DNA from: a virus
DNA length: 30,513 bases
Virus record (IMG/VR): IMGVR_UViG_3300008267_000231
Coordinates: 1-30,513 of that record
Strand: one strand, 5' to 3'
Shown: positions 124-16,729 of the stretch, one piece after another
How positions within the stretch are numbered: position 1 is the stretch's first letter
Layout of the letters: each line of letters opens with the position of its first letter
The notes under the pieces: model-generated
Told to the model about the DNA's origin: nothing
Seen by the model: the letters and a program-made list of their open reading frames with translations, nothing else
Databases searched by the model: none
Program-made: the position numbers and the translations under genes

Positions 124-254
124 TGGACGAACAATCACTAACTTACTTAGGGATGGCACTCGTTACTATCGGCACTCTGTACACTGCATGGCTATCAATA
201 ATTATAATGGTAAGGGAAGAACGGTTACATGGACATCGTAACAATAGACTTTGA
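123..254 (+). CDS. 43-residue single-pass membrane microprotein
   Basis: The ATG at 123 overlaps the preceding TGA (TGATG) and has AAGGA about eight bases upstream. The product has a short polar N-terminus (MDEQSLTY), one hydrophobic segment at about residues 8-30 (LGMALVTIG...WLSIIIMV) and a strongly basic C-terminus (REERLHGHRNNR). By the positive-inside rule the C-terminus should stay in the cytoplasm. Its last 26 bases overlap the start of the DNA polymerase, so it may couple translation into that gene. No family is recognised. It could be an early host-modulating membrane peptide or simply a translational coupler; the start signal and overlaps are the evidence that it is expressed. Confidence 0.55.
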   Translation: MDEQSLTYLGMALVTIGTLYTAWLSIIIMVREERLHGHRNNRL

Positions 255-2103
255 AACGTACTACGACAGGGACTATTCCCTGTCCAAGATAACAACAGAA
301 GCCTACATCCGCGATATGTTATTTGAAGTTATCGGTGTGGGCGTCAAGGTGAACGACTATCCTACTGACTGGTATAGTGGGAAGGATGTAGGGAAGTTTC
401 TTAGAAGCCTAGACTATAGAGACAAGGCTATCTTGTGCCATAACACGGCGTTCGATGGGGCTATCTTATCGTGGATGTTTGATATCAAACCTATGTTCTG
501 GCTTGATACTCTGAGCATGGCTAGGCCGTTGCATAATGTCACTGTCGGGGGTTCACTCAAGGCACTGACAACTTACTATGCTTTGGGTGAGAAGGGTGAT
601 GAGGTAGTCAATGCACTAGGCAAACGCCGTGAGGACTTCACACCAGAGGAACTCAATCGGTACGCTTCCTACTGTGTCAATGACGTAGAACTAACGTACA
701 AGTTATTCCAGAAGATGAAGGTCGGCTTCCCTGCATCCGAGTTGATGATCATCGATCAGACTTTGCGTATGTACACTGAGCCTAAAGTTATTCTGGATTG
801 CCGTGTATTAAATAACCATCTCGCCGATGTATTGGAAAAGAAAGGTCAACTTGTTGATAGTCTTGGGCTGACTGGCATGACCGAGGAACAGGTCAAGAAG
901 GTACTATCAAGCAACGATATCTTCTCGAAGTATCTACAGAACTTAGGCATCGATCCACCGACTAAGGTAAGCCCCACTACTAACAAGACAACGTGGGCTT
1001 TCAGCAAAACAGATCAAGCGTTTGTGGATTTGTTGGAGCATGGTGATGAACGGGTTCATCTTGCCGTAGCTGCTAGGCTTGGCGTTAAGTCTACGATTGA
1101 GGAGTCAAGAACCAAAAACTTATTGCAGGTTGCTTACCGTGGTACGCTTCCGATCATGCTCAACTATTACGGGGCGCATACAGGTAGGTTTAGTGGCGGG
1201 GACAAACTTAATCTCCAGAACCTGCCAAGGAACGGGGCTATTCGTAGAGCCATCTGTGCGCCAGACGGTATGTCATTCATATCATGTGACTCAGCGCAGA
1301 TTGAAGCCCGTGTTCTTGCATGGGCGGCAGGACAGGATGATCTGGTGCAAGCGTTCCGTGAGGGGCGCGATGTATATAGTGAGTTCGCTAGTGAGGTGTA
1401 CGGCAGGAAGATAACCAAGGCCGACAAGATTGAACGGTTCGTTGGTAAGACCTGCATCCTTGGACTTGGTTACGGTATGGGAGCCGAGAAGTTTCAGCGC
1501 ACACTTGAGTTAGGTCAAGGCGGCATCTCTGTTAAACTTACACTGAAAGAAGCCAAGCGCATCGTCATGCTCTACCGCGTAAAGAACCACAAGATCGTTT
1601 CGTTCTGGAACAGATGCAGTGTTGCCCTACAACATATGTTGGCAGGTAAGGACGGTGAGATCACTCCTATACTCAGGTACAACCGCGACGGCATAACACT
1701 CCCCAATAAGTTTAAGATTAAGTACCCTGCACTCAGGGCTGTGGATAACAATTTCGAATACATAAGTGACGCTCGTTCCTATCGCGCAGAAATAAAGTCC
1801 CGTGTGTTAGATGGTACTTCTACCGGGGTAACATGGACCAAGATTTACGGGGGTAAAGTTACTGAGAACATTGTACAAGCACTGGCTCGTATCGTAGTAT
1901 CAGAACAGATGGCAAAGGTTGGGCAGACTTACCGCGTAGCGTTTCAGGTACACGATGAAGTCGTGATCATCTGCTCAGATGAGTTCATTGACGCCGCCAA
2001 GCAGGTCATCACCGATATAATGTCAACGCCTCCTAAGTGGGCGGCTGATCTTCCTGTCTCATGTGAGGCAGGGCATGGAAAGAATTATGGAGACGCACAT
2101 TGA
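229..2103 (+). CDS. Family A DNA polymerase with 3'-5' exonuclease domain (Leu762 type)
   Basis: This is the replicative DNA polymerase of the phage. The N-terminal DnaQ-like proofreading exonuclease has Exo I D7-x-E9, Exo II N72...D76 and Exo III Y148xxxD152. The polymerase domain has motif A (CDSAQIEAR, catalytic D354), motif B (R403, K407, Y415) and motif C (QVHDE, H575-D576-E577). At 624 residues it is compact and lacks a 5'-3' exonuclease domain, as in T7-like and other phage enzymes. The residue aligned with E. coli Pol I Phe762 is Leu411. The ATG at 229 lies within the end of the upstream microprotein; its stop overlaps the TTG start of the next gene. It should work with the downstream primase-helicase and SSB-like protein. 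Assignment to family A is certain; the Leu762 call rests on my manual alignment of motif B. Confidence 0.96.
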   Translation: MDIVTIDFETYYDRDYSLSKITTEAYIRDMLFEVIGVGVKVNDYPTDWYSGKDVGKFLRSLDYRDKAILCHNTAFDGAILSWMFDIKPMFWLDTLSMARPLHNVTVGGSLKALTTYYALGEKGDEVVNALGKRREDFTPEELNRYASYCVNDVELTYKLFQKMKVGFPASELMIIDQTLRMYTEPKVILDCRVLNNHLADVLEKKGQLVDSLGLTGMTEEQVKKVLSSNDIFSKYLQNLGIDPPTKVSPTTNKTTWAFSKTDQAFVDLLEHGDERVHLAVAARLGVKSTIEESRTKNLLQVAYRGTLPIMLNYYGAHTGRFSGGDKLNLQNLPRNGAIRRAICAPDGMSFISCDSAQIEARVLAWAAGQDDLVQAFREGRDVYSEFASEVYGRKITKADKIERFVGKTCILGLGYGMGAEKFQRTLELGQGGISVKLTLKEAKRIVMLYRVKNHKIVSFWNRCSVALQHMLAGKDGEITPILRYNRDGITLPNKFKIKYPALRAVDNNFEYISDARSYRAEIKSRVLDGTSTGVTWTKIYGGKVTENIVQALARIVVSEQMAKVGQTYRVAFQVHDEVVIICSDEFIDAAKQVITDIMSTPPKWAADLPVSCEAGHGKNYGDAH

Positions 2104-2762
2104 CACGCCTTTCTCACTCTCACTCGGCTCTTGTTCTCTATGATAACTGCCCGTTGCGGTACTATTACCAACGGGTGGCTAAGGCTGTTGTCGATAAGGG
2201 TGGAGAAGCCAGCCTCTACGGCGAACGTGTACATAAGTTTCTGGAAGATAGGCTCAGGGAAAAGCACCAACTCCCCCAAGAAGTGGAGGGGTATGACGAC
2301 ATGGCTCAGGCCATCGAAGAGATATCCAGAGGTGGTGAGCTGCTGGTCGAGAAGGAACTGACACTCACAGATAAGTTTACACCAACCGGATGGTTTGAAC
2401 CAGACGCATGGTTCCGTTCTAAACTTGACGTTCTTGTTATACGTCCTGAGTGTGCATACGTTTTGGATTGGAAAACAGGGAAGCGCAAGCCTGACTTTGC
2501 TCAGTTGGAACTGTTCGCCATGCAGGTGTTCATGCACTATCCAGAGGTGGATACTGTTAAGACTTGCTTTGTCTGGCTCAAAGAAACCAAGATGGACTCA
2601 GAGACATTCACTAGGAGTCAACTACCTGATATCACTAGCAAATTACTGAAGCGAGTGGTGCGAATCGAGAAGTCTCTTGAGTCTGAAAACTGGCCCGCAA
2701 AGCCTAGCGGTCTATGCAGGTTCTGCCCTGCTAGAAATATGTGCGATTATGCACTAACATAG
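2100..2762 (+). CDS. RecB/Cas4-like PD-(D/E)XK nuclease with 4Fe-4S cluster
   Basis: This 220-residue stand-alone nuclease has the RecB-nuclease motifs in order: H45 in the helix GERVHKFLE, D110 (KLDVL), D123-W-K125 (DWKTGK) and Q136 (QLELF). Cysteines C17 (NCPLRYYY) and C206, C209, C215 (CX2CX5C) match the split 4Fe-4S ligands of Cas4 and AddB. Such enzymes cut or resect DNA ends. The start is TTG at 2100, overlapping the polymerase stop, with GGAG seven bases upstream; the protein begins just before the conserved first cysteine, so this start gives a full-length family member and no in-frame ATG precedes C17. With the neighbouring VRR-NUC and SNF2 helicase it suggests end processing, recombination or degradation of host DNA. 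No CRISPR context exists, so Cas4 is a fold label and not a role. Confidence 0.88.
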   Translation: MTRLSHSHSALVLYDNCPLRYYYQRVAKAVVDKGGEASLYGERVHKFLEDRLREKHQLPQEVEGYDDMAQAIEEISRGGELLVEKELTLTDKFTPTGWFEPDAWFRSKLDVLVIRPECAYVLDWKTGKRKPDFAQLELFAMQVFMHYPEVDTVKTCFVWLKETKMDSETFTRSQLPDITSKLLKRVVRIEKSLESENWPAKPSGLCRFCPARNMCDYALT

Positions 2763-2772
2763 AACTTGACAT

Positions 2773-3147
2773 ATGAGTAAATGGGATTACATTATGGCTA
2801 CTACACCAGAAGGTCGTATCAAGGCTAAGGTGAAGGCATTATTTCATAGGTACAACGTGTGGTATTTTATGCCTGCGAATAATGGCTATGGAAGATCAGG
2901 GGTTCCTGACTTTGTAGCGTGTGCTAACGGTAGGTTTATAGGTATTGAAACCAAGGCGGACGGTACGAAGAAAGCTACCGCACTACAGGAGTTGTGCGGT
3001 CGGGCGATACTAAGCAGTGGCGCTTACTATGCTGTTGTTTTTGATGATGTCACACTGCTTAATTTAGAGACGTATCTAAAAGTTGGTTTAGGGATGGTAG
3101 ATGTTAGTAGTAGAGAGCGCAAAGGCACTGGCACTGAAGCTGAATAA
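2773..3147 (+). CDS. VRR-NUC domain nuclease
   Basis: This 124-residue protein is a single VRR-NUC module, a PD-(D/E)XK superfamily fold common beside phage helicases. It shows E13 in TPEGRIKAKVKAL, the signature GRSGVPDFV with D46, and GIETKAD with E59-x-K61, followed by a helix containing LQE. The reaction is expected to be metal-dependent DNA cleavage, probably structure-specific as in FAN1-type VRR-NUC proteins, but substrate choice is not visible. The ATG at 2773 has no clear ribosome binding site; an internal ATG at 2794 (MATTPEG) matches where many family members begin and is a fair alternative. The last 47 bases overlap the helicase, so nuclease and helicase are probably translated together. 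Confidence 0.88.
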   Translation: MSKWDYIMATTPEGRIKAKVKALFHRYNVWYFMPANNGYGRSGVPDFVACANGRFIGIETKADGTKKATALQELCGRAILSSGAYYAVVFDDVTLLNLETYLKVGLGMVDVSSRERKGTGTEAE

Positions 3148-4666
3148 CCCAGCGCGAGTACTTGCTAGTATACCAACTGCAAAGTTATTGAGGGTACAAG
3201 GTTCTGATCTTGTTATTGCACCGCACAAACTTGATGAGGTTCGGGTTCTCAGAAACCTTGGGATAAACGCGCCATCTCCTATCATGCACTACTACGATTG
3301 GTGTGGAAGATACACTCCATACAATCACCAACGGGAGACAGCGGCGTTCCTGACCTTGAATAACAAGGCTCTGGTTCTCAATGAGATTGGTACTGGTAAG
3401 ACACAGAGCGCACTATGGGCGGCTGACTATATGATTAAGCGGAGACAGGTACGCAAGGTACTTATCCTGTCTCCACTATCAACACTCGAACGAGTGTGGG
3501 CTGATGCTATATTCACAGACTTCATTCACCGCAAGTCTGTTGTCCTGCACGGTTCATCGGAGCGTAGGTTGAAGCACCTAAAGAAGGATGTGGATTTCTA
3601 CATCATTAACCATGACGGGTTCCCTATCATTGCCGACGAGTGCATCGGTATGTTTGATCTTGTGATTGTGGATGAGGCTGCGGTCTTGCGTAACCCATCG
3701 ACCCAGAGGTTCAAGGTATTCAGGAAGTGGATGGAGAAGAATCCACAAACACGTTTATGGATGATGACTGGAACGCCTACTCCTAATGACCCGACAGACG
3801 CATGGGCCTTAGCTAAGTTGGTTGGTAGTCCGTTCTGTACCCAGACATTCACCGCGTTCAGAGAACAGGTTATGATGAAGATTAGCCAGTTCAAGTATGT
3901 GCCAAGGCCAGAGTCGGTTGAGATCGTCAAACATATTCTACAACCATCTATCCGCTATACCAGAGATGAGTGCTTTGATCTTCCTGATACCGTGTTCCAG
4001 ACACGCAAGGTAGAACTTACTGCTGATCAGAAGAAGCACTACACTCAGATGACTCGACACTACGTTACCGAGATGCTGAAGGAACGTATATTAGAAGGGA
4101 CTATCTCTGCTGTTAACGAGGCAGTTAAGTTACAGAAACTTATTCAGATAGCCTGTGGCGTAGCGTATGGCGACGAAGGTGAGAATATCGAAATTGATTG
4201 TTCACCCCGTGTGAATGCGGTCAAGGAAATCATTGACGAGGTAGGTGAAAAGGTTATTCTCTTTGTCCCTCTGACGGGTACGCTTCATATGTTGGAGCGT
4301 GAGTTATCAAAGCATTGGTCATGCGCTGTAGTTAATGGACAGGTTACTGCCGGAAAACGTAACCAGATATTCCACGACTTCCAGAATGGCGCAGACCCAA
4401 AGATTTTAATCGCCCATCCTGCAACGATGGCACATGGACTAACACTGACCGCCGCATCCACTGTGATCTGGTACGGCCCAGTGACAAGCAACGAGCAATA
4501 TGTTCAGGCAAATGGACGTGTTGAACGTATCGGTAAGAAGCACGTCTCTAACGTAATCCACATCGAAGCTACCGACTTGGAGCATAAGATGTATGAGCGT
4601 TTGAAAAATAAACAGAAACTACAGGGGCTGCTTCTTGATCTTATACAACAAGCTACGGAGAAATAG
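3101..4666 (+). CDS. SNF2-type superfamily 2 helicase/translocase
   Basis: This 521-residue ATPase contains a Q-motif-like segment (YTPYNHQ, Q77), Walker A (NEIGTGKT, K100-T101), motif II DEAA at 191-194, motif III TGTPTPND at 223-230, and a C-terminal lobe ending in the motif VI-like QANGRVERIGK. The layout is a minimal SNF2/Rad54-like two-lobe motor with no accessory domain. Such phage enzymes move on double-stranded DNA or drive branch migration and annealing, somewhat like T4 UvsW; here the exact role is inferred. The start at 3101 lies inside the VRR-NUC gene and is preceded by GGGATGG. No DnaB-type helicase is seen in the window, so unwinding at the fork probably falls to this protein or to the helicase domain of the primase. 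Confidence 0.92.
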   Translation: MLVVESAKALALKLNNPARVLASIPTAKLLRVQGSDLVIAPHKLDEVRVLRNLGINAPSPIMHYYDWCGRYTPYNHQRETAAFLTLNNKALVLNEIGTGKTQSALWAADYMIKRRQVRKVLILSPLSTLERVWADAIFTDFIHRKSVVLHGSSERRLKHLKKDVDFYIINHDGFPIIADECIGMFDLVIVDEAAVLRNPSTQRFKVFRKWMEKNPQTRLWMMTGTPTPNDPTDAWALAKLVGSPFCTQTFTAFREQVMMKISQFKYVPRPESVEIVKHILQPSIRYTRDECFDLPDTVFQTRKVELTADQKKHYTQMTRHYVTEMLKERILEGTISAVNEAVKLQKLIQIACGVAYGDEGENIEIDCSPRVNAVKEIIDEVGEKVILFVPLTGTLHMLERELSKHWSCAVVNGQVTAGKRNQIFHDFQNGADPKILIAHPATMAHGLTLTAASTVIWYGPVTSNEQYVQANGRVERIGKKHVSNVIHIEATDLEHKMYERLKNKQKLQGLLLDLIQQATEK

Positions 4667-4668: not shown

Positions 4669-5067
4669 ATGACAGTTGATGAAGTGATTGCTGCATACCT
4701 CAGGTTCAGGACCAAGAAGTCCCAGATAACCGCTGAACTTGAGGCAAAGGTATCAGAACTAGATGCCAAGATGGAGAAGTTAGAGAACTGGATTAGGGAG
4801 CAAGCTGATGCACAGGGAGTGACATCATTCAAGGGTAACAGTGGTACTGCCTTCATAACCACTACCGACTACGCACAAGTTGCTGATTGGGATGCAATGT
4901 TGGATTTCATAAAGACCAATAACGCATACGATATGCTTGAGAAACGTGTCAGCAAGACTGCTGTACGTGGATATATTGAGATGAATAAAGCCGTACCTGC
5001 CGGTGTTAACTATGGCACTAAGCTATCTGTTAATGTCCGTAAACCTACCAAAAAAGTGTCTGATTAA
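4669..5067 (+). CDS. Coiled-coil phage protein of the replication block, function unknown
   Basis: This 132-residue protein has a charged helical N-terminus predicted to form a coiled coil (about residues 15-48, KKSQITAELEAKVSELDAK...), then a compact domain with GNSGTAFITTTDYAQVADWD, a helical LEKRVSKTAVRGY segment and a conserved-looking end (PAGVNYGTKLSVNVRKP). Proteins of this shape are frequent beside SSB-like genes in phage genomes and usually carry no function. The coiled coil followed by a small alpha/beta domain is reminiscent of Mu Gam-like host-nuclease inhibitors, but I cannot confirm homology. It starts two bases after the helicase stop and is 21 bases from the SSB-like gene, so a DNA-metabolism role is likely. 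Confidence 0.82.
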   Translation: MTVDEVIAAYLRFRTKKSQITAELEAKVSELDAKMEKLENWIREQADAQGVTSFKGNSGTAFITTTDYAQVADWDAMLDFIKTNNAYDMLEKRVSKTAVRGYIEMNKAVPAGVNYGTKLSVNVRKPTKKVSD

Positions 5068-5088: not shown

Positions 5089-6057
5089 ATGAGCGATCTC
5101 GTACCAATGAACGTCCAGATTCCTGCCCATCTTGCCAACCGCATCGGACAACCATCCGCACTAGCCCAGTCTATTATGGGCGGTATCACTAGCGGTGACT
5201 CATACCCACGCATCAGCATCAAGGGTAGCCGCTTCCGTATCGTGGAAGGTGGAACTGAAACCGTTATGGATACCACGGCACTAAAGGTTGTGATCGTCGG
5301 TTCTAATCCACGCCTGTCTAAGACATGGTATGCTGCTGCATGGTCAAAGGACGCAGAACCTACTGCTCCTGATTGCTACTCGCTTGATGGTGTCGGCCCT
5401 CATCCTGATAGCACGAAGCCGCAGAATGATCTGTGTGCATCATGCCCTCAGAACGCTTGGGGTTCCAAGACTAGCCAAGAGGGTAAGCAGATCAAGGCGT
5501 GTGCCGATCAGAAGCGTCTCGCTGTTGTGGCTGCTGATGACCCGACCGGTCCTGTATACTTGTTGCAGGTTACTCCTGCTGCATTGAAGGGACTGAACGC
5601 ATACCAGAAAGAACTTGCTATTCGTGGCATCGCACCGGAACTTATCCAGACGAAGATTTCTTTTGATACTGATGCCTCGTTCCCGAAACTTGTCTTCAGT
5701 TTCGGTGGGTTCAACGATGGTGAAACACAAGAAGCTGTAGATAAACTGTTTGGCTCACGGGAAGTCATTGAGATTACAGGTGAAAAGGCAGACGTAGTGA
5801 GAGCAATCCCGCAGTCTGCCCCTAAGCCTGTATTAGTCGCACCGAAACCTACTCCAGTTGTAGAGGCTCCTGCTCCCACTCCTGCCCCTGTGGTAGAAGA
5901 AGCTGCTGCTCCTAAGAGAGGTTTCGGTGCTGCTACCACTGAAGTTAAGGCAGCGCCTAAAGTTGTGGATAAACCTGCTCAGACAACCGCTGCTTCAACA
6001 TTAGCTAGTGAAATCCTCGCACTAGTTGGAGAGGACATGGACGCAGATGACGCCTAA
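5089..6057 (+). CDS. SSB-like protein with four-Cys zinc site and acidic tail
   Basis: This 322-residue protein has three parts. The first 240 residues form a beta-rich domain (PRISIKGSRFRIVEGG, then ALKVVIVG) interrupted by C96, C116, C119 and C138, a spacing that fits a structural zinc site. Next is a Pro/Ala/Val-rich linker at about 240-300 with repeated KPTPVV and APAPTPAP. The end is acidic (GEDMDADDA). An OB-like core, zinc site, flexible linker and acidic tip together resemble phage single-stranded DNA-binding proteins (T4 gp32 has zinc; gp32, T7 gp2.5 and bacterial SSB have acidic tails that dock partners). AGGAG lies seven bases before ATG 5089. The role is inferred from architecture and position between helicase and primase. 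Its end overlaps the HTH gene. Confidence 0.8.
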   Translation: MSDLVPMNVQIPAHLANRIGQPSALAQSIMGGITSGDSYPRISIKGSRFRIVEGGTETVMDTTALKVVIVGSNPRLSKTWYAAAWSKDAEPTAPDCYSLDGVGPHPDSTKPQNDLCASCPQNAWGSKTSQEGKQIKACADQKRLAVVAADDPTGPVYLLQVTPAALKGLNAYQKELAIRGIAPELIQTKISFDTDASFPKLVFSFGGFNDGETQEAVDKLFGSREVIEITGEKADVVRAIPQSAPKPVLVAPKPTPVVEAPAPTPAPVVEEAAAPKRGFGAATTEVKAAPKVVDKPAQTTAASTLASEILALVGEDMDADDA

Positions 6058-6334
6058 TAAGACGCCAATAGACTTCCTGAAAGTCGATCAGCTACGCAAA
6101 CATATGTTGTTGACTGCATCTGATATGTCGAAGATATTCGGATGTTCTCGCATGACCTACTACTCATGGATAAGAGGGCAGCCACTCCGTAAAACAAACG
6201 ACGATATAGTCAGGCGTAAGATACGTGTGCTCCTAGCTATTATGACGGAACACAACTGGCCCACACCAGAAGTTATCGGGATGGAACAGGCTAACCGTAA
6301 GAAGTATCTTGATGAGTTAATAAAGCAGTACTGA
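6047..6334 (+). CDS. Small helix-turn-helix DNA-binding protein
   Basis: This 95-residue basic protein contains an HTH at about residues 13-50: TASDMSKIFGC as the support helix and SRMTYYSWIRGQ as the recognition helix, the Cro/XRE pattern of short phage regulators. The rest (RRKIRVLLAIMTEHNWPTP and a Lys-rich end) is helical and may dimerise. I chose ATG 6047, which lies inside the last codons of the SSB-like gene (11-base overlap); a TTG at 6026 would add seven residues without similarity to known N-termini. It sits just before the GC hairpin and the primase gene, so it may regulate early transcription or bind an origin. Neither target nor polarity can be read from the sequence. Confidence 0.8.
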   Translation: MTPNKTPIDFLKVDQLRKHMLLTASDMSKIFGCSRMTYYSWIRGQPLRKTNDDIVRRKIRVLLAIMTEHNWPTPEVIGMEQANRKKYLDELIKQY

Positions 6335-6382: not shown

Positions 6383-9265
6383 ATGAATACGTTGGAATTT
6401 CTCCAGCGAGTCTTGCCGTCAGATGGATTTTATGCAACCGCCGTCATAAGTGATGTCGTAAAGCATGGATTCTTCTCGACCGTAGAAGAACTCGCACAAG
6501 CAATAGACCGATCAGAACGCCGCAATGAGAATGTGTATTACGCGGTGGCATCATTCAAATCCAAGGGCGCTAGGAAGCAGGACAATGTTCATGCTATCAA
6601 GTCGTTCTACCTTGATATCGATTGCGGTGAGGGTAAACCATATCCACACTGGCACGATGGGCTGAAAGCCCTGCTCAAATTTATGGGCGAGACAAACCTG
6701 CCCAAGCCTATGGTAGTTTTCTCAGGCAACGGGCTTCATGTTTATTGGACATTAACCAGAAGTTTATCCCCAGACGAATGGCTACCTATTGCTCGTGCTC
6801 TCAAGGACACGGCTATCAAGAGTGGACTTCATATAGACCCTGCTGTCACAGCGGACAGCGCACGAATTTTACGCCCCATTGGAACTCATAATCCAAAGGG
6901 TGGGCTGCTTGTTGATCTGAAGATCGATGCTCCGGCTATTGACCCTGAAGATATTTTTGAGTGCTTAAAAATATCCGCGATGAAGTCACGGATTATAAAT
7001 GGTGGAGCCATAGATAGCCCTCTTACTGGTCTAACATTAACAAAACCTGTTCAGTCTAATCTTTTAAGTAGCCTCGCTGTTAAGCAGGATTATCCCCCTG
7101 CTATGCCAGCCGTAGTTGCATCCAAGTGCAAGCAGATTGATTGGGCCACAAAGAACCAGAGCGAAGTACCCGAACCATTATGGTACAGCCTCATGGGGAT
7201 TGCGGCGTTCTGCGTAGACCCAGAAGCTACCGCTGTGGAGTGGAGCCAGAACCATCCATCATTCGATTACAACTCGACAATCAGAAAAGTTAACCATTGG
7301 CGCAATGCAGCAACAGGCCCAACAACCTGCAACAAGTTTAACGAACTTAGACCAGAGGGCTGCAAGGGATGTAAGTTCAAGGACAAGATAGGTAGCCCTG
7401 CCCGACTTGGATTGCAGTACCAAGAAGTTGCTGTTGCCCAGACTGCACCAGACAAAGCCGCATCTATCATACCGATTCCTAAACCATTCAAGCGCACTGC
7501 CACTGGTATCAAGATGACCCTCGACGAGTCGGATATCGATATATGCAAGTTCGACATATATCCAGTCAGCTATGGTAGAGATGAGTCACTTGGCTATGAA
7601 GTAGTGCGCTACCACTGGAACCGTCCGCATATTGGGTGGCAAGAACTTGTCCTTAGACAAGCGCATCTCAACGAAGAGAACAACCGTGAGTTCGCTTCTC
7701 ACACTGCTGATCAAGGGATTGTCCTGAGTACTAAAACCCAAACAAGGTACTTCCAAAATATGCTTAGATCATACATGGACGAACTGCGGAACATTCGCAC
7801 GATGACAAACCTATATAATACAATGGGTTGGAAAGAAAACTTCTCAGAGTTTATTTTAGGTGATGTGATGTACCGCCGGAATCCAGACGGCACAGTGTCC
7901 GCTGAAGACATAACCCTATCACAAACCTCTAACAGAGTTACTGACGAACTGTATGGTAGCAGGGGAACTGTCGAAGAGTGGAGAGACTTCACCGCCATAC
8001 TAGATAAAGCGGACATGCCTATACATATGTTTGCACTTGGCATTGCGTTCTCTTCTCCGCTGTATGCGTTCACTGGTCTGAAGGGTATGGTCGTATCGCT
8101 ATATGGTTCCACGGGTGGTGGTAAAACCCTTGCCCAGTACTGGATGCAGTCTGTCTATGGTAATCCAGATCGTTTGCATTTTGCAGCTAAGTTCACACAG
8201 AATACCCTGTTCTCTAGGATGGGCCTCTACTCCAACATGCCGTTCACTATCGACGAAGTAACTATGATGGCTGACAAAGAGGTCGGTGACTTCCTCTATC
8301 TGGTATCTCAGGGACAAGAGAAGGCCCGACTCAATCGCAATGCCGAGGAACGCTCAACTAAATCATGGTGCTTGCCAGTTGTTGTATCCACAAATAAGTC
8401 TATGCAATCTAAACTGATATCATCTGGACTGGATACCGATGCCCAGATGGCCCGACTCCTAGAAATAACTGTGTACCCACATAAGCTGTTCACCAAAGAC
8501 AGCACGGTAGGCCGGAAGATATACCAGTTTCTCATGTCGAACTATGGGACTGTTGGCCCTGTACTGATCAGGAAGTACCTTGAGATTGGTGAGGTCGGTA
8601 TCAAGGCTATGATTGCTGAAGCCACGTCATCATTCCACAAGGAGTATGGAGCAAGGTTCTCAGGTGAAGAGCGGTATTGGGAGCAGTGCATCATCCTAGC
8701 GAGTGTCGGAAACAAGATTGCTGCTGAGTGCGGACTGATAGCCTACGACCCGAAAAGGGCAACCGAGTACGTGCTACAACAAATTGGTGCTATCCGTAAG
8801 GCCGCTGTCGATAACAAGATGGATGCGTTCGATACGCTGGCTGAGTACATGAACGATACTGCTGATGCTGCTGTGACTATCATGCACACTGTTGGTCAGA
8901 AACCTGCACTAGATTATGCCCGTGTACCAAGAGCAGATATCCGTGTCCGCTTTGATGTGTACAGGTCAGCCGCAACAAGTACGTTTGATCGTGGAACCAT
9001 GATGATTGACCGCATCCACTTCAGGAAATGGATGTCAGCCAAGGGCGTTGACTGGAAGTCATTCTTGTCTGAACTTGTTCTGGAGAACGTAGTGGCTACG
9101 CCGAAGTCAGAGAAGATGAACCTTGGCAAAGACACACCAACAAAGTTAGGGCAGTCATACGTAATCGGTATCAACCTGAATCATCCACGGTTGAGCGGCA
9201 TCCTAGATGCAGCCGATGGCACAATGGATGATCTTACACTAGGCAAGTTGTCGGTGGTGCAGTGA
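6383..9265 (+). CDS. Primase-helicase: AEP-like primase fused to a DUF927-like ATPase
   Basis: This 960-residue protein should prime and unwind DNA at the phage fork. The N-terminal half looks like an archaeo-eukaryotic-type primase: D78-x-D80 in FYLDIDCG, SGNGLHVYW at 114-122, D152, and the RILRPIGTHNPK segment at 161-172. A Cys cluster (C316, C327, C330 in CNKFNELRPEGCKGC) suggests a zinc knuckle. The C-terminal half is a hexameric-type ATPase with Walker A YGSTGGGKT (K581-T582) and Walker B FTIDE (D624-E625), as in DUF927 and phage primase-helicase proteins. The ATG at 6383 has AAGGGG upstream. Its stop at 9263-9265 touches the stop of the convergent giant gene. Primase-helicase is a confident call; assignment of the N-terminal catalytic residues is by pattern. 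Confidence 0.9.
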   Translation: MNTLEFLQRVLPSDGFYATAVISDVVKHGFFSTVEELAQAIDRSERRNENVYYAVASFKSKGARKQDNVHAIKSFYLDIDCGEGKPYPHWHDGLKALLKFMGETNLPKPMVVFSGNGLHVYWTLTRSLSPDEWLPIARALKDTAIKSGLHIDPAVTADSARILRPIGTHNPKGGLLVDLKIDAPAIDPEDIFECLKISAMKSRIINGGAIDSPLTGLTLTKPVQSNLLSSLAVKQDYPPAMPAVVASKCKQIDWATKNQSEVPEPLWYSLMGIAAFCVDPEATAVEWSQNHPSFDYNSTIRKVNHWRNAATGPTTCNKFNELRPEGCKGCKFKDKIGSPARLGLQYQEVAVAQTAPDKAASIIPIPKPFKRTATGIKMTLDESDIDICKFDIYPVSYGRDESLGYEVVRYHWNRPHIGWQELVLRQAHLNEENNREFASHTADQGIVLSTKTQTRYFQNMLRSYMDELRNIRTMTNLYNTMGWKENFSEFILGDVMYRRNPDGTVSAEDITLSQTSNRVTDELYGSRGTVEEWRDFTAILDKADMPIHMFALGIAFSSPLYAFTGLKGMVVSLYGSTGGGKTLAQYWMQSVYGNPDRLHFAAKFTQNTLFSRMGLYSNMPFTIDEVTMMADKEVGDFLYLVSQGQEKARLNRNAEERSTKSWCLPVVVSTNKSMQSKLISSGLDTDAQMARLLEITVYPHKLFTKDSTVGRKIYQFLMSNYGTVGPVLIRKYLEIGEVGIKAMIAEATSSFHKEYGARFSGEERYWEQCIILASVGNKIAAECGLIAYDPKRATEYVLQQIGAIRKAAVDNKMDAFDTLAEYMNDTADAAVTIMHTVGQKPALDYARVPRADIRVRFDVYRSAATSTFDRGTMMIDRIHFRKWMSAKGVDWKSFLSELVLENVVATPKSEKMNLGKDTPTKLGQSYVIGINLNHPRLSGILDAADGTMDDLTLGKLSVVQ

Positions 9266-9280
9266 TTACTGCACTGCACC
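9256..9280. terminator. Inverted repeat at the convergent gene junction, possible bidirectional terminator
   Basis: GTGCAGT (9257-9263) pairs with ACTGCAC (9268-9274) around the loop GATT. Because ACTGC is repeated, GGTGCAGT (9256-9263) can instead pair with ACTGCACC (9273-9280). The stop codons of both convergent genes lie in this element (TGA 9263-9265 on +, TAA at 9266-9268 on -). No U-tract is present on either side, so termination strength is uncertain. Confidence 0.45.
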
Positions 9281-12200
9281 ATCCTTCACATCAAGCCCGT
9301 ATATATTCAGGTAATCGATAACGTCTTGCTTCAAACCCTTTGGAGCAGTGCGTAGATATCTGACAGACGATGAACTCATCGCCTCTTTAGCTGCTTTCTT
9401 GATAGCCAGATCAAAGTCTTTTATCTCAAAGCCTGTGCCTTTTGCGTCGATATTATGCTGCTTAACCTGCTGTTTGATTCTGGTCATATCAGCCCTGTTG
9501 TTAGAGACAGCAGCCCTACGGTAGGCATCCACAAATTCTTTTTTGACTGCGGCTACATACGCACCGCCGCCCTTGGATATGCGAATGACATCATTAGTCT
9601 TTGTTGTATCTGCTGGCATGAAGCCAAGTAGACGAAAACCTAGAACCATAGGGCCGACAGTTTGGAGCGCGACCTTGCCATCAGACGTAGTGACCTTGCC
9701 ATCTTGGTAGTACACAAGCGTGTCACTAAGCGCACGAACCCCAGCAAACGGAGACTTCCGCATAATATCGTTTATCGTTGTGGTATCAGGCTTTAGCCCA
9801 ACGACTTCAGCGGCATAAGATACAATATCTTTTGCGTTGGTTGCTATACTTGTTATACCGCCAACGATAGGTCCGGCAAAGTTTGCGATTTCTCTAATAG
9901 GGTCAGAACCATAGTTGAGCGCCCCCGTCAGCGGAATGATATCACCAAACCCTGAGCGGGACGATACTGTAGCACCGGTCATCTCGTCAACAAGTCCACG
10001 CATGATATACGGTGTGAGTCCCGGTACAATGGAGTTCAGGAACAGCATGACTTCACCTTCAGCAGACTTCTTTTTGATGTTGAGTGACTGCATCAGGAAG
10101 TCAGCAAGGTCGAGCAAGTCATCTGCGAATGGAACACCCTTCAGTCCGCTCAATAGAAGGATTGTCCCGATCATTGCCGCTTGACCACTCGGTGACAGAT
10201 TTCTCATCATGCCCAAAGTCAGCACAACAAACTGCTTGTACATAAACAACAGGCTGCCGATCCCATCGTAAGCAATTCTTGGGCGGTTGTACATGGCGTA
10301 CTGGCCCTGTGTCATGTCAATGGTGCGGCTTGTAACAACCCGTGATCTTGCCTGTGCTTCCGACTCAGTAAGACCTTCAGCCAGTGCGCGTTCCTTCTCA
10401 AGCCGATAGGTAGCAAGCGCAGTGACTCTACGATTGTAGGCTTCTGTGTACGAAAACATAAACATGTAGCCGCGTATTCCAGCCTGTACGTTACCGCTGC
10501 GGATGCCGCCGCGCTTTGTTCCGAGAAGAGTATTGGCTTCCGATGGCTGTAGAGAACCGGTAAGTGTTTCACTCAGAAGATACTTGGCCTCATCCTCAGT
10601 CATACCGTTGCGGCGTTCACCCGCTGTCCAAGGCTTCTCAACTAGCTTGGTCAGGTAGTCAGAGTCAGCCAGTTTATAATTACCAACATCCTTACCTGCG
10701 ATGGACAAGGCTTTGAACGCTTTCGAATACCCATAGCCAAGTCCGTATGAACGAGCCGGATTGTAGGTAGCCAGATAGTTCAAGCTATGCGTACCAAGGG
10801 ACAACAAGTTGACCATTGCTGTGGCAACCGAACCGCCTAGTTGCATGGTAACAACTGCTGTTTTGATGCGCGATACGACAGGTCCACTTAGAGCGTCCTC
10901 GACAGCATTCGCCGTATCAAGCTGTTGACCATGCCATTCAATGAGCGCACTGGCTTCGTTAAAGTAGCTATTGCCCTCACCTTTTGTAGCTACTGTCTTG
11001 GCTACCGAACCATCTTCCTTGAGCATATCTACTGCTGGCCTACGCTTAGGAGCCGAGTAAACATATTTATATGCGTAATCATTGTACTCGCGTACTGCCT
11101 GTGCCTTCCGAGATGGGTCTTTCTCTGCATCGACTGCGAGTCTTAGGGCTTTCAACTTGCTTGGCTCACCTTGCCACGCAGATTTATTAAGCATGACAGC
11201 ATCTGTCTGCCTTCTGTATCTGATCTTTGCCGATACGTGTGAACTTGTTTCTATGTGGTCTGCAATGGAGCCAACAACATCAGCGTTAAAACCGGGGTTA
11301 CCGCTGAACCGTAACCGAGAACGACGTGAATCACCCTGCTTGGTCATAGAAACAACAAGGCGCTCACGTTCCTGAGGGGTTATGCTGACGTTGTTTCTAG
11401 CCAAGTAGTTCACAAAGTTGCTGAAATCTCCTGACTCACCAACGGACCGATTCACAGCAGCCTTACCAGACTCTACCCTAAACCTGACCGAAACAGTTTT
11501 ACCGTCAGAGTTAACGACATCAAAGTCCTTGCCTTCCCATATAGCAGCAAGTCCGTTTTCTTTCTGCCCAGTCTCTTTGTTTTTGAAACCGTCTATAATC
11601 CCGTCAACTTCATCAATAGAGTCAGCCCGTGGAGTTGGCATGACATCCTTGAATGCCTCAGCAAGTTGTACAGGGTTACCACTTTTATCGTATGCCACAA
11701 GGCGAACCTCATACTTCCCCCTATGGATAAGCGGAGCATACGACGTTCTGATTGTTGTCTTGGCATCTATCTCAGCGTTACGTGCATCGACTTCCGAGAA
11801 GACGCTGTTAGCAATATGTTGTTGAATATCGCCAAGCGCCTTGTCACCCGAAATATTCATACGCTGTAGAGTGGTTAGAGCAGCACGTACCTTGTCGTAC
11901 TCAGGAACAGCGAAGATGGTTGCAGCCTTCTCTGTACTACCAGCCTGCGGAGACAACCAATCTTTCATCTTATCGGTTTTGTAGAAGGCACGGGTTACCT
12001 CATACAGGAAATCCTTAGCCAGTGCCGTACTTGCTTCACTAGGTTCTACCTTGTCTGTACCGATAGATGATACGATATCGGACTCCAGAATAGACCTGTA
12101 CTGCTTTATGATGGCTTTAAGTGCAGAGACTTCAGCCTGAGTAGCTGAGGTATCCTCCGGTAAAAGAGCCTTCACTACGTCGCTGACAAGCTCCGTCTGT

Positions 12201-15200
12201 TGGTACTGTGCGCTAAGATATGTTTGCTCAAGTTTGTCGAGAGCGGCTTTGTTAACCACTGCCCTCTGCTCAAGGTAGATTTTCCAAGCCTTACTGCTCT
12301 CGTCTATATTCTCTTGAACTTTTTCCTGAAGTTCACCGAGTGCGTTCTTGATCTCAAAACCTTTTCTAAACTGGTCGGCAGTCACCAACCCATCAGCCAT
12401 TACCTGATCAGCAACAGCCTTGTTGAGCGTCGGATACCCGGAACCATTAAGGACAAACAAGCTACCATATCCTGTTATGTCACTGTCTTTAGTAGACTGC
12501 AGCATATACATACGCGCTTGGGCTAGGTACTGACCTGCCTTAGTAAGATCATCTTGGGATGGGCCACCGAACACAGACCCCATACCGGTAAACTTGTTCA
12601 TGTCCTCAAGCTGGCTGATGAGACTACGAGCAAGATTGTTCTGTGCCTTGAACAGGTTATAGATTGTAGTTAGACCCTCGCTATGCCGAGCCTTTTGATC
12701 CAAGGTTGAGAATATATCCGCAGTGATTTTAACTGCCTGCTGCAATTTGTCGGGGCTTGTGAAGAAGCTACGCATGTTATCAAGTACAGTAAGATTGTCT
12801 CCTACCCGATTAAGACCGCCTGATGCAGCCGATGCAAAAGTAACATCAGAACGGGAGAACATACCGTCCATCGCGGTTTGGGTCATATCAGATATCGTGT
12901 CGGTAATGCTGTCATTGCTGAAGAAGTTACCTGTGATGCCCCTACGAACATACATACGAGACTGATGGATGAGCATACGAGCAGCATCATCGTCGAACTC
13001 AAAGCCCATACGGTTCAGTGCATTCTTGATGAAGTTCCACACTCTACGGATTGTAGAGGTATCCAGTTCAGCGGCCCGCTGTGCCAGTACTTCCTCAATA
13101 GCTTCAAGCTTGCTCATACCGTGGAGGTCGATGAGTTCATCAGCCGCGTTACGGACTTCACTGTCCTGATTATATGCTTGGTTAAGCATGGACTTCAGGT
13201 TCGCATCAGACATGATGGACTTAAATCCGAAGTGACCGAGTGCTTCATGGGCCAAGACAAACTTAAGCTGCTGCTCAGTCTGTACGAAGTCACTGAAGAT
13301 AATGATATCCTTGCCGAAGGAATATCCAACAGCCTTAGTTGTAGCAAAGTCCCCTGCTTCACGCGCAGCGTTAGCACGTTCATACAGCTTAGGGTTAGTA
13401 GCCTTGAGATCAGCCACGTTCTTAGCCACATGGACAGTAGGGGCGTTAACGAACTTTCTCACCATACCAGCAACGAGCATCTTGACTCGTCCGATTACCA
13501 TAGGCTCAGGGATTGGCGTCCCGTCAAGGCGAAGATACAAACCGCCGCTTTTGTCTTGCCTAGCTTTAGATGCAGCCCTCAACTGACTAAGGCGGGCTTC
13601 TTTGATTTGCTGTTCGCGTGATATAGGATCGGGTTTATTGACAGATTCCTGAACATCCGCCGGTAGGTCTGTGGCCTTAGCCAGTAGTCCCTTCAGTTCT
13701 GGAACAAGGTTGTATGTCTTAGCAAACTGAATCCACTCTTTGACGGACGCAGTTGGGTCTGCTTTCAGGATACTAGTGATCTTATCTTTAAGAGAAGAGC
13801 GAAGCGCCTGTCCTATTGTCTTACCGATACCAGAGTTAGGAGCAGTAGCAGCAATGATATAGCCGACTGCATCCTCGTCCCCAGAGAAAGCGAGATCAAC
13901 CATATTAGCCGTAGGTTTCTTGGCTTCAGCAAGACTCGTTGCTTCTGCTAGATCATTTACTACGGAGCGGGTTGTTACGTTTGTTGCCCGTTTTGGAGCT
14001 TCTGTCTGAAGGTTTTCTGAGGGAACGCTTCCCTCTTCCGGTTTTCCCACGGGAGACACCGCCCCCTGCGGTGTCACTGGAGTTTCTTTGGCCTTAACTT
14101 TTTCTAGTGCGGCTTTATTTAGCGCAGCTATATTCTCAGATGTATTTTGTGGGTTTAGGTTTAGTCTAAATGTAGAGCGCGGTGCCACGCTCTCAATCGC
14201 AGCTTTGTTTATAACAACAAACTCGGTCCGCCCTCTAACATCAGTGCCGGAAACAACGCCATAACCATCTGCCACGTACTGGTCGATGGTTTCTTTAGAC
14301 AGACGCGTAATGTCTCTATTGTGTTGTACAATGCGTACTCCGGGGGCTATACGGATATCATATACAGCCCCATCTTTGCCAGCATACTCAGTTGCCTGAT
14401 TATCATTTTCTTCACTGGTGGTATACAAACCCCCATACACGCGCCCTTTTTTACCCTGCTTCATCTGGTCTGCTGGTCGGATAATTTGGATGTTGTCCAG
14501 AGTAAGGCCCGGTTTACCGCCGTGAACAAGCGTGAGCCCTTCTGGACCAACGACAGTCTCACTTTTTGCAGCAGGAGTTTCCTTAGTAGGCGCAACAGGC
14601 TGCGTCGTAAAATCAAATGCCATTTGAGCAGAAGGATCGTAAGTCTCCTGTTGTACTTGCGGTACAGCAAATGCGCGTTCACGATCAGCCATTGCCCTCT
14701 GAGACGCAAACTGCTCAGATGTCTGCATAGGTAAGGCAACTTGCCCTTGCCCACGCCGAAGTAACTGAGAACCCGGTCGCTGAAACAGTGGGAGCTGTTG
14801 AGCAGGGAATGGTTGTGCCTCTGGAATAGCCGTAGGCTCTGGCATAGCCGGAGCGTTATACTGATTAATATCCTGCTGCATCTGTTGCTGACGTACTTGT
14901 TGCTGAAAGTTGCCAGCCGACTGCAGTCCTGCATTAAAATCTTGCCTAGCGGCTTCCCTAGCGGCAATAACTGGACCTAATCGTGCAGCCATCAACGGAT
15001 TAGTAGGAGGAGCGACCTGCTGAGGGATCAGGTTCTGTAACTGCTGCAACATCATATTGCCCTGAGGCGGTAGGGCAGTCTGAACAGGTTGAGCAGGTAA
15101 TCTTGGTTGGGTAAGCAGGTTCGGTTGGGCAATACTCTGCGGTGCAGCCTGTGGTACAGGTCCAGAAGATATATCCCTAAGATTCTGCATCAAGTTTGCT

Positions 15201-16729
15201 TGACCTTGAGGGATGATAACTGCAGGTTCACCAAGGAAAGCCCTGCGACGATCAGCAAATGGGTCCAATGTCGGCAGTGGAGCAGGTGTAGCTGCTTCAT
15301 TCACAGTTGGCGCAAACATCTGCTCACGACGAGCCTGCATGAATGGGTCAGTTTCACCTTCGTTGTATCCAGCGTCACCCGGTTGTGGAGGTGAAGGAAG
15401 GGCAGGAGTAGCAGTTGGGTCTGGATTACCGCCTGCAAGAACATCGGTAGCCTTACCTGCTTTCAAACTACCCGGTGTATATATCTGCGCTCCACCACCG
15501 GCAACACCACCAATGCCAAAGCCTGCGGCAAAGGCGTTAAGAACACGTAGCTTACCGCTATCGGAACCGAAGTCCTCATTGGGATTGGCAGCAAGCAGAA
15601 GAAGTTCCTGAGCAGCTTCAGTACTACCTTCAAGCAGACCACCGGCAGTACCGCCGACAGCACCGCGCTTAAGGAGTTCTCCTGCCTTACCGCGTGTCGT
15701 TGGTATACCCGCAAAAGCTTTGTTACCTAGTTTTAGAGTACCACCAAAAATCTTATTGGCAAGTACAGCCTCGGGAAACAGATCAAGTGCAGCGTATGGA
15801 AGACCCCCAAGGATGGCCTTCATTCGATCAGGCTCTCCAGATTCTACTGTCTCGCCATAGATATCTGATGCACCCATTGCGTAACTATTAGCAATTCGAG
15901 CTGCTGCACCCCCAGCGATACCGGCTGCAGTCTTGAGAACTTTAGTTTCATCTAGGGTAAGTGGGACGATAGCCTTACCAGCAGCCTTGAGTTCGTTGTT
16001 GGTTATGACCTTTGCAGTAATTTCAGCAAGAGACTTCTTAATAGTACCCTTACCAACAAGGCCAGCGATAACACCGGCTGCACCAGTGGCAGGGTTAATA
16101 CCGCCACCTGCTGCTGAACCACCAGCATAGCCAATGGCAATAGTAGCCAGATTCTCTAGAAGAGTTGGGCCAAACTGTGCTAAATTTGCAACAAACCAGT
16201 CAGTCACACCGCGCTCAGGAGAAGAACCGATTTCACTGAACGACCTCTGGTATGGCTCAACCTTAGCTAAGTCCTGTGCCTGTTGTTCTACAATGCTCTT
16301 ACCCAGTGTTTCAGCACCGGCAAGCTGCAGACCATAACCAGCAAGTTGTTGTAGGTTGTCTACGCCAATGCCGAAGTTTCGAGTGAGCAAACGCCACGTA
16401 CTGGGATCAGTAATCTCGCGCACATGACCAAGATATCCAGCAGAATCAAGAGAAACCCAGTCGCCCTGTGGGGCAGGTCTAGGGGTCGGGTCGTTGAAGT
16501 ACTCAAGCGACTTAACCTTTTGAGTTTCGTCATCAGCCTTGAACGTGCGCCCGTTCACATAGAACGAGTCCAGCGATGGGCTGTACTTAACAGTCGCACT
16601 GCCAGTATCCAGAGGCGCATACTCAGGCTGACTAGGCTGAGTAAATTGTGGCATCTGCATATCAGGTAGCGGCAGCGGTTGGATCGAACCGTAAAGATTT
16701 GGGGGAGCAATCAGCGGTTGTTCAGCCAT
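9266..16729 (-). CDS. Giant polyvalent virion protein (ART-like, HExxGH zincin-like and PLxRFG-like segments)
   Basis: The protein has 2487 residues and is the last gene of the virion operon. Residues 170-430 are Gly/Ala-rich and membrane-seeking; 433-720 is a Pro/Gln-rich linker. Residues 732-840 resemble an ADP-ribosyltransferase: LVHGG (H736), GGLYTTSEEN (Y769), AVYDIRI and GRTEFVV (E836), an H-Y-E pattern. H1161-E-A-L-G-H1166 plus E1212/E1213 form an HExxGH zincin-like site. A PLxRFG-like motif (PLIHRGKY) starts at 1666. Long helical stretches follow, then hydrophobic helices at about 2150-2197. Such giant proteins in podoviruses are packaged and ejected with DNA and may carry effector domains. 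The ATG has AAGGT upstream and lies nine bases after the transglycosylase gene. The reading frame is certain, the domain calls moderate. Confidence 0.85.
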   Translation of the reverse strand: MAEQPLIAPPNLYGSIQPLPLPDMQMPQFTQPSQPEYAPLDTGSATVKYSPSLDSFYVNGRTFKADDETQKVKSLEYFNDPTPRPAPQGDWVSLDSAGYLGHVREITDPSTWRLLTRNFGIGVDNLQQLAGYGLQLAGAETLGKSIVEQQAQDLAKVEPYQRSFSEIGSSPERGVTDWFVANLAQFGPTLLENLATIAIGYAGGSAAGGGINPATGAAGVIAGLVGKGTIKKSLAEITAKVITNNELKAAGKAIVPLTLDETKVLKTAAGIAGGAAARIANSYAMGASDIYGETVESGEPDRMKAILGGLPYAALDLFPEAVLANKIFGGTLKLGNKAFAGIPTTRGKAGELLKRGAVGGTAGGLLEGSTEAAQELLLLAANPNEDFGSDSGKLRVLNAFAAGFGIGGVAGGGAQIYTPGSLKAGKATDVLAGGNPDPTATPALPSPPQPGDAGYNEGETDPFMQARREQMFAPTVNEAATPAPLPTLDPFADRRRAFLGEPAVIIPQGQANLMQNLRDISSGPVPQAAPQSIAQPNLLTQPRLPAQPVQTALPPQGNMMLQQLQNLIPQQVAPPTNPLMAARLGPVIAAREAARQDFNAGLQSAGNFQQQVRQQQMQQDINQYNAPAMPEPTAIPEAQPFPAQQLPLFQRPGSQLLRRGQGQVALPMQTSEQFASQRAMADRERAFAVPQVQQETYDPSAQMAFDFTTQPVAPTKETPAAKSETVVGPEGLTLVHGGKPGLTLDNIQIIRPADQMKQGKKGRVYGGLYTTSEENDNQATEYAGKDGAVYDIRIAPGVRIVQHNRDITRLSKETIDQYVADGYGVVSGTDVRGRTEFVVINKAAIESVAPRSTFRLNLNPQNTSENIAALNKAALEKVKAKETPVTPQGAVSPVGKPEEGSVPSENLQTEAPKRATNVTTRSVVNDLAEATSLAEAKKPTANMVDLAFSGDEDAVGYIIAATAPNSGIGKTIGQALRSSLKDKITSILKADPTASVKEWIQFAKTYNLVPELKGLLAKATDLPADVQESVNKPDPISREQQIKEARLSQLRAASKARQDKSGGLYLRLDGTPIPEPMVIGRVKMLVAGMVRKFVNAPTVHVAKNVADLKATNPKLYERANAAREAGDFATTKAVGYSFGKDIIIFSDFVQTEQQLKFVLAHEALGHFGFKSIMSDANLKSMLNQAYNQDSEVRNAADELIDLHGMSKLEAIEEVLAQRAAELDTSTIRRVWNFIKNALNRMGFEFDDDAARMLIHQSRMYVRRGITGNFFSNDSITDTISDMTQTAMDGMFSRSDVTFASAASGGLNRVGDNLTVLDNMRSFFTSPDKLQQAVKITADIFSTLDQKARHSEGLTTIYNLFKAQNNLARSLISQLEDMNKFTGMGSVFGGPSQDDLTKAGQYLAQARMYMLQSTKDSDITGYGSLFVLNGSGYPTLNKAVADQVMADGLVTADQFRKGFEIKNALGELQEKVQENIDESSKAWKIYLEQRAVVNKAALDKLEQTYLSAQYQQTELVSDVVKALLPEDTSATQAEVSALKAIIKQYRSILESDIVSSIGTDKVEPSEASTALAKDFLYEVTRAFYKTDKMKDWLSPQAGSTEKAATIFAVPEYDKVRAALTTLQRMNISGDKALGDIQQHIANSVFSEVDARNAEIDAKTTIRTSYAPLIHRGKYEVRLVAYDKSGNPVQLAEAFKDVMPTPRADSIDEVDGIIDGFKNKETGQKENGLAAIWEGKDFDVVNSDGKTVSVRFRVESGKAAVNRSVGESGDFSNFVNYLARNNVSITPQERERLVVSMTKQGDSRRSRLRFSGNPGFNADVVGSIADHIETSSHVSAKIRYRRQTDAVMLNKSAWQGEPSKLKALRLAVDAEKDPSRKAQAVREYNDYAYKYVYSAPKRRPAVDMLKEDGSVAKTVATKGEGNSYFNEASALIEWHGQQLDTANAVEDALSGPVVSRIKTAVVTMQLGGSVATAMVNLLSLGTHSLNYLATYNPARSYGLGYGYSKAFKALSIAGKDVGNYKLADSDYLTKLVEKPWTAGERRNGMTEDEAKYLLSETLTGSLQPSEANTLLGTKRGGIRSGNVQAGIRGYMFMFSYTEAYNRRVTALATYRLEKERALAEGLTESEAQARSRVVTSRTIDMTQGQYAMYNRPRIAYDGIGSLLFMYKQFVVLTLGMMRNLSPSGQAAMIGTILLLSGLKGVPFADDLLDLADFLMQSLNIKKKSAEGEVMLFLNSIVPGLTPYIMRGLVDEMTGATVSSRSGFGDIIPLTGALNYGSDPIREIANFAGPIVGGITSIATNAKDIVSYAAEVVGLKPDTTTINDIMRKSPFAGVRALSDTLVYYQDGKVTTSDGKVALQTVGPMVLGFRLLGFMPADTTKTNDVIRISKGGGAYVAAVKKEFVDAYRRAAVSNNRADMTRIKQQVKQHNIDAKGTGFEIKDFDLAIKKAAKEAMSSSSVRYLRTAPKGLKQDVIDYLNIYGLDVKDGAVQ

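Follow-up and report, generated by a model that had tools for sequence, protein, structure and literature searches.

Virus record IMGVR_UViG_3300008267_000231, a 30,513-base stretch of DNA referred to here as the window, carries three consecutive genes for a Cas4/AddB-type nuclease, a stand-alone VRR-Nuc and an SNF2-family motor directly after a family A DNA polymerase gene. This trio is probably part of a phage replication-recombination operon, in which the exonuclease would trim DNA ends, the SNF2 motor would remodel forks and branched DNA and the VRR-Nuc would cut four-way junctions. The reading draws on what this analysis established about the protein families and their catalytic residues, the order of the genes and the conservation of their co-occurrence. 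The gene set itself is not new, being widespread and already described in phages; what the window contributes is a compact and divergent form of it. A preliminary description of the window had named the same three open reading frames (ORFs) as a Cas4-like nuclease, a VRR-NUC protein and an SNF2 helicase following the polymerase, and profile matches and coordinates bear out these identities. The four genes are:

229-2103, plus strand: family A DNA polymerase with a 3'-5' exonuclease domain (PF00476, 2.6e-34; DNA_pol_A_exo1, 9e-6; phrog_17, 4.6e-88)
2100-2762, plus strand: predicted Cas4/AddB-type PD-(D/E)XK exonuclease (PDDEXK_1, 1.2e-17; phrog_69 exonuclease, 3.3e-25)
2773-3147, plus strand: stand-alone VRR-Nuc, predicted Holliday-junction-type nuclease (phrog_93, 3e-12; conserved residues; profile matches in the PDB)
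3101-4666, plus strand: SNF2-family ATPase/translocase of superfamily 2 (SF2) (SNF2-rel_dom, 3.4e-19; Helicase_C, 5.5e-16; phrog_62, 1.7e-103)

The exonuclease gene starts at a TTG inside a TTGA that it shares with the polymerase stop, with a GGAG located 7 bases upstream of the TTG, and the VRR-Nuc and SNF2 ORFs share 47 bases. Short overlaps of this kind are ordinary in phage operons. The coupling by overlaps proposed in the preliminary description holds at these two places but not between the two nuclease genes, which are separated by 10 bases.

The exonuclease exceeds the PDDEXK_1 cut-off by a wide margin (65.2 bits against 22), and this match, together with the invariant residues D110, D123 and K125, confirms a PD-(D/E)XK core. 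Across 62 aligned rows, C17, H45, C206, C209 and C215 are invariant as well. In Cas4/AddB-type iron-staple nucleases, the nuclease core is preceded by a single cysteine and followed by three more, a pattern matched here by C17 and by C206, C209 and C215. On these sequence features we assign the protein to the Cas4/AddB type, with a predicted iron-sulfur cluster. Its profile matched PDB entry 9iac (7.1e-8) and, weakly, Cas4 (8d3l, 0.0014). A PHROGs scan of 18 ORFs of the window named no cas1 or cas2. In Pseudomonas phage Rollin, an intein-like insert with a LAGLIDADG_3 match splits the exonuclease at the DxK motif, and the region (L002 5057-6802) is annotated merely as hypothetical.

The product of the second gene is recognizable mainly through its relatives. 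A Pfam scan of the single protein at E values up to 0.1 returned no family, and a PDB search with it returned glutamate receptors at E 0.03 or worse, which we dismissed as chance; a profile was needed. The profile of 66 rows matched the solved phage and bacterial VRR-Nucs 4qbo (5.6e-16), 4qbn (2.7e-13) and 4qbl (8.7e-5) and reached archaeal Hjc and RecU after them. Residues E13, D46, E59, K61 and Q72 are invariant in the 66 rows and P45 is found in at least 90% of them; the E ... PD ... ExK ... Q active site of stand-alone VRR-Nucs is present in the window protein and its relatives. Furthermore, the FAN1-type helical insertion between beta1 and beta2 is absent, with gaps of at most 3 residues against 4qbo and 4qbn in the printed profile alignments. 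At a threshold of 0.01, Pfam assigned 21 of the 66 members to Hjc and 5 to VRR_NUC. Together, these features predict a stand-alone VRR-Nuc that is a Holliday-junction-type nuclease. The available parts of the 2014 structural paper (PMC4103454; the literature is cited throughout from the parts of the texts available) describe viral and bacterial stand-alone VRR-Nucs of the psNUC, stNUC and saNUC type as dimers that cleave Holliday (four-way) junctions, and state their role in phages as unknown. The window protein resembles these enzymes in its E-PD-ExK-Q residues and in a profile match covering most of the domain; it differs in being too divergent for Pfam alone and in its C-terminal codons, which overlap the SNF2 gene.

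In Xanthomonas phage Xp15, the annotated helicase (L004 7005-8768) probably starts about 375 bases too early, and its annotation hides an unannotated VRR-Nuc ORF in another frame (L004 7010-7363). Rollin likewise has an unannotated VRR-Nuc ORF (L002 7049-7414). Matches to the phrog_93 'endonuclease' profile were also found within the long polymerase ORFs of PV637039.1 (30421-31539; L251) and LR794150.1 (L249), perhaps because some phrog_93 members are polymerase-VRR-Nuc fusions. In the available table of Gardnerella phage vB_Gva_AB1, the helicase is preceded by two short neighbouring ORFs that are both listed as VRR-NUC (PMC7996455); the gene may be split in this phage.

The third gene product exceeds the Pfam cut-offs for both SNF2-rel_dom (69.5 bits) and Helicase_C (59.2 bits), and residues G97, K100, T101, D191, E192, T223, G224, P226, Q469, R473 and R476 are invariant in 66 rows. 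The closest structural matches to its model (mean predicted local distance difference test score, pLDDT, 86) are remodeller ATPases, among them INO80 (VIA Z 28.2, root-mean-square deviation (rmsd) 4.1, 396 residues aligned). Members of the SNF2/SF2 class translocate on duplex DNA without processive unwinding. At its N-terminus the protein has an extension of some 70 residues, which an alignment of 27 sequences shows to be conserved; the profile of this extension found no match in the PDB (best E 0.95), and a HARP-like domain is a conceivable candidate for it. The structural alignments cover residues 43-506, and with only 3 of 50 rows beginning before residue 40 they barely test this extension.

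To assess the coding potential of these ORFs, we compared the window with three close contigs (L008, L162 and L163, about 96% identical over the region; values are given in this order). Third codon positions account for 22/27, 19/23 and 18/22 of the differences in the exonuclease gene and for 51/67, 50/66 and 50/66 of those in the SNF2 gene, counted from base 3148 and hence outside the overlap. The bias is weak in the non-overlapping part of the VRR-Nuc gene (7/12, 5/9 and 4/10), and the case for this gene therefore rests on its conserved catalytic residues. The exonuclease start codon, the SNF2 start codon and the TTGA show zero differences.

The preliminary description took rare co-occurrence of the three genes elsewhere as grounds for refuting its proposal; the neighbourhood survey shows that they do co-occur and thus gave no refutation. 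Scans of IMG/VR contigs took the best 80 of 578 matches for SNF2, the best 80 of 391 for the exonuclease and all 3 relatives of the VRR-Nuc. For the latter, the seven-row alignment was too divergent as a query, and the single protein was used, returning three loci of 94-97% identity. With six contigs that had been fetched twice removed, the close-relative set comprises 150 distinct contigs, many of them short. Overlaps are inflated, since each ORF was taken to begin at its earliest potential start codon. The marker genes found lie on the same strand in all 150 contigs. More specifically, polymerase, exonuclease and VRR-Nuc are all present in each of the 66 contigs with more than 6 kb upstream of SNF2, and the four-gene set is found in 109 of the 150. 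The 112 contigs with exonuclease, VRR-Nuc and SNF2 show the order POL-EXO-VRR-SNF2 (89 contigs), EXO-VRR-SNF2 (3) or VRR-POL-EXO-SNF2 (20). The last is a lineage (e.g. L038, L051 and L053) that keeps the order of polymerase, exonuclease and SNF2, with the VRR-Nuc moved upstream of the polymerase. Given this conserved co-occurrence, a chance origin of the arrangement is implausible.

The distant set consists of 82 loci with flanks of up to 6 kb, namely the best 80 of 402 loci from bacterial genomes and two seed phages; some of the loci come from one genome, and the profiles were iterated on the same loci that were later counted. Here, the VRR-Nuc lies upstream of SNF2 in all 82 loci, overlapping it in 70 and within 100 bases of it in 78. 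Within the flanks, a polymerase was found in at least 54 loci and the exonuclease model matched in at least 7. Both are lower bounds given the flank length, the second also because the exonuclease model recognizes the divergent DUF2800 branch poorly. The VRR-Nuc/SNF2 pairing spans phages like this one to loci in genomes of Firmicutes, Bacteroidota and Actinobacteria.

Among whole phage records, 2525 matched, and 18 were hand-picked for variety from a 60-row spread list. Five were added, three from the same list (L002, L005, L006) and two picked through their exonuclease or VRR-Nuc matches and hence biased towards the trio (L003, L004). The resulting 23 records with an SNF2 relative contain a VRR-Nuc in 15 cases, a PDDEXK_1 match in 20 and both in 14; the corresponding counts for the 18 variety-picked records are 10, 15 and 9. 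Escherichia phage vB_EcoS_PS2 is one of the phages in which all three genes of the trio were detected. The trio is common, not obligatory, and a Cas4/RecB-type nuclease is commoner than the VRR-Nuc in the 23 records, according to a model so generic that it also matches in 12 of 14 control genomes, which makes the 20 of 23 nonspecific.

These counts bear on the suggestion in the preliminary description of a functional analogue of AddAB/RecBCD with its subunits split, in which the three proteins would form one helicase-nuclease for processive double-strand-end resection. The exonuclease carries the four-cysteine Cas4/AddB signature and shares an operon with the motor; exonuclease and SNF2 are both present in 132 of the 150 contigs, PDDEXK_1 matches in 20 of the 23 SNF2 phage records, and in the rearranged lineage of 20 contigs it is the exonuclease, not the VRR-Nuc, that precedes SNF2 among the markers. 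The motor of AddAB/RecBCD, however, is of the SF1A (UvrD) type, and its nuclease domain sits on the helicase chain. The window motor matches SNF2/SF2 models and folds, and nuclease and motor are separate ORFs (2100-2762 and 3101-4666). Moreover, the VRR-Nuc lies between exonuclease and motor in 92 of the 112 contigs with all three genes, and the motor usually abuts the VRR-Nuc, as in the 78 distant loci. We consider a split AddAB/RecBCD analogue improbable. The broader proposal of a phage end-processing or recombination set stands, on the profiles, the conserved order and published precedent (available parts of PMC9226167 and PMC4103454), and the window is read as a standard replication operon, not a split RecBCD.

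In the proposed operon, polymerase, exonuclease, VRR-Nuc and SNF2 motor are followed by a tentatively Gp157/Gam-like protein, a possible single-stranded DNA-binding protein (SSB), a helix-turn-helix protein and a primase-helicase. The Cas4/AddB-like nuclease would resect or trim linear ends and flaps, with a polarity that we infer. The SNF2 motor would move on duplex DNA and remodel stalled forks or branch points by annealing or branch migration rather than by processive unwinding. A VRR-Nuc dimer would then cut the resulting four-way junctions, allowing replication restart and the packaging of branched concatemers. SNF2 may thereby feed the VRR-Nuc, perhaps within a physical complex. Phage T4 UvsW and T5 D10, the closest functional parallels considered for the motor, belong to SF2 groups and have partner resolvase families that differ from those of the window. 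Both are SF2 enzymes acting on branched DNA in phage replication or recombination, T5 D10 by branch migration and T4 UvsW likewise in recombination-dependent replication (accessible text of PMC5180179). Remodelling by SNF2 and cutting by the VRR-Nuc are proposed because VRR-Nucs cut junctions and T5 D10 and T4 UvsW branch-migrate.

The same data can also be organized as two separable units within one operon, the first made up of exonuclease, SSB and polymerase and the second, a junction unit, of VRR-Nuc and SNF2, and we hold this arrangement to be a serious possibility that falls a little short of an even chance. A duf2800-gp2.5-polA module is on record (available part of PMC8093625), the distant loci keep the VRR-Nuc with SNF2 and have the exonuclease model in at least 7 cases within their flanks, and in RHph_TM3_14A other genes stand between parts of the set. 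On the other side, all parts occur together in the 66 well-flanked contigs, and the 7 of 82 is the lower bound described above, limited by the flank length and by the weakness of the model. The two-unit arrangement refines the replication-recombination operon rather than excluding it. A bolder version strikes us as rather unlikely: VRR-Nuc and SNF2 would be the two subunits of a dedicated translocase-resolvase, and the Gp157/Gam-like protein would shield DNA ends from the exonuclease encoded nearby. If true, the pair would be a phage counterpart of the fork-reversal motors that work with a structure-specific nuclease. The pairing gives a testable claim, namely that the VRR-Nuc cuts junctions which SNF2 has created or shifted.

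Several observations weigh against the replication-recombination reading. In the 20 rearranged contigs, the VRR-Nuc lies upstream of the polymerase and not beside SNF2, and no VRR-Nuc was found in 8 of the 23 whole phage records. A replacement resolvase in these records is not supported: a RusA match was found in one of the 8, the only one among the 23, and the endonuclease VII model matched none of the 23 but also none of the control genomes, which makes this second result uninformative. Shared descent explains part of the co-occurrence, because the scans returned the best-matching relatives. No recombinase was identified by Pfam or PHROGs among the eight operon ORFs scanned. In addition, the available text on psNUC and stNUC reports intermediate cutting of replication forks by the former and flap cutting by the latter (PMC4103454); by analogy, junctions need not be the sole substrate of the VRR-Nuc. 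Finally, the activities and interactions assigned to the proteins are predictions from comparison of their sequences.

Two further explanations were weighed. A set for degrading the host genome, for nucleotide supply or host shutdown, would fit an operon that encodes a motor along with two nucleases, and in Xp15 genes for thymidylate synthase and deoxycytidylate deaminase lie within 5 kb after the same cluster. This idea, also raised in the preliminary description, found no specific support and is very unlikely: the genes sit with a polymerase and a primase, nucleotide metabolism was matched (Pfam, PHROGs) by none of the same eight operon ORFs, and related genes turn up in contigs of bacterial genomes, presumably as parts of prophages, as well as in phage records that carry integrases. 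A defence or counter-defence cassette comes to mind since a Swi2/Snf2-domain helicase is part of the ARMADA defence systems (PMC12458937, available part). With the trio located inside a replication operon, it is the reading to which we give the least credence.

Closely related gene sets have been reported. In the available part of PMC9226167, Candidatus Heliusviridae share nine genes that include DUF2800, DUF2815, DNA polymerase I, a VRR-NUC nuclease and an SNF2-like helicase, and the window resembles this core in that PolA and a PD-(D/E)XK nuclease occur together with VRR-Nuc and SNF2 within a single phage group. The shared genes of Heliusviridae further comprise those for terminase, portal, Clp protease and major capsid proteins. 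In contrast, no DUF2815 Pfam match was found in the window's eight operon ORFs at E values up to 0.1, and the window exonuclease is short (220 residues), with a sub-threshold DUF2800 match (17.3 bits, cut-off 21). The window primase is of the DUF927 type, whereas Bloomfield and phiFL4A carry VapE/VirE-type genes at that place. The likeness to the duf2800-gp2.5-polA module (PMC8093625) lies in a PD-(D/E)XK nuclease near polA; the possible SSB of the window (5089-6057) differs in having no Pfam match to Gp2.5 or DUF2815. Tables available for Gardnerella and Faecalibacterium phages list DUF2800, DUF2815, polymerase and VRR-NUC and then a 'DEAD/DEAH box helicase' (PMC7996455, PMC13432834), and phages phiEap-2 and ZP6 are likewise reported to carry genes for VRR-NUC, an SNF2 helicase and polymerase I (available parts of PMC4913238 and PMC8515928). 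In the literature searched, mostly without subscription journals, we found no functional study of the VRR-SNF2 pair or of the combined module. A DNA-level search of phages with positions 2773-4666 gave no match.

The remaining genes of the operon are located downstream of SNF2:

4669-5067, plus strand: small protein, tentatively Siphovirus Gp157/Mu Gam-like (Pfam matches of relatives; BFVD)
5089-6057, plus strand: possible single-stranded DNA-binding protein (phrog_27714 of unknown function, 9e-26; four invariant cysteines; acidic tip)
6026-6334, plus strand: small protein with a weak helix-turn-helix match (HTH_17, 6e-4, below cut-off)
6383-9265, plus strand: DUF927 primase/helicase, last forward gene of the cluster (PF06048, 3.2e-29; phrog_8841 DNA primase/helicase, 4e-28)

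The protein encoded at 4669-5067 is labelled 'minor head protein' in PHROGs. This label is doubtful, because the gene follows SNF2 in a replication operon and its relatives match Gp157 and Mu Gam. Among 51 relatives (E up to 0.1), 39 match DUF7307 'Pam3 gp33-like', 29 Mu_Gam-Sipho_Gp157-TOTE, 28 Phage_Mu_Gam and 17 Sipho_Gp157, the last with a best E of 1.2e-6 whose score was not printed. In the ten relatives with printed scores, the Gam/Gp157 matches are below cut-off, with possible coiled-coil bias. The Gam matches cover partly just the coiled coil, and the name is therefore tentative. The model (pLDDT 91) combines a long helix with a beta-alpha domain. A PDB search with this model gave no significant match (best E 0.98); the rows shown did not include Mu Gam, which is not thereby excluded. 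The profile of the relatives found nothing convincing in the PDB (best E 0.034). Against BFVD, the top four matches are unnamed or uncharacterised, the fifth is Siphovirus Gp157 (2.2e-5, rmsd 6.3) and rank 39 is a 'Host-nuclease inhibitor' (1.4e-2). We tentatively regard the protein as a Gp157/Gam-like accessory protein. Weak BFVD fold matches to A0A0K0N697 (5e-3) and A0A140G6F7 (6.5e-2), named PD-(D/E)XK or RecB-like exonuclease, hint that this fold may occur fused to the exonuclease.

The protein encoded at 5089-6057 has four cysteines invariant in 43 rows (C96, C116, C119 and C138) and the C-terminus LVGEDMDADDA, features that suggest a possible SSB. Against this assignment, the Pfam model Gp3-like, which describes a recombination directionality factor, was matched by 3 of the 43 rows, at best with 0.001. 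A match of its profile to PDB chain P14 (0.00044) involves the low-complexity C-terminal part and was taken as chance.

Beyond the operon, a minus-strand ORF of 2487 residues occupies positions 9266-16729 of the window; Pfam returned no family for it at a threshold of 0.01. The window itself may be a fragment. Ten late window ORFs compared with PHROGs include matches to internal virion, tail-fibre, tape-measure, transglycosylase and endolysin proteins, with an SLT match as well, which suggests a podovirus-like phage.

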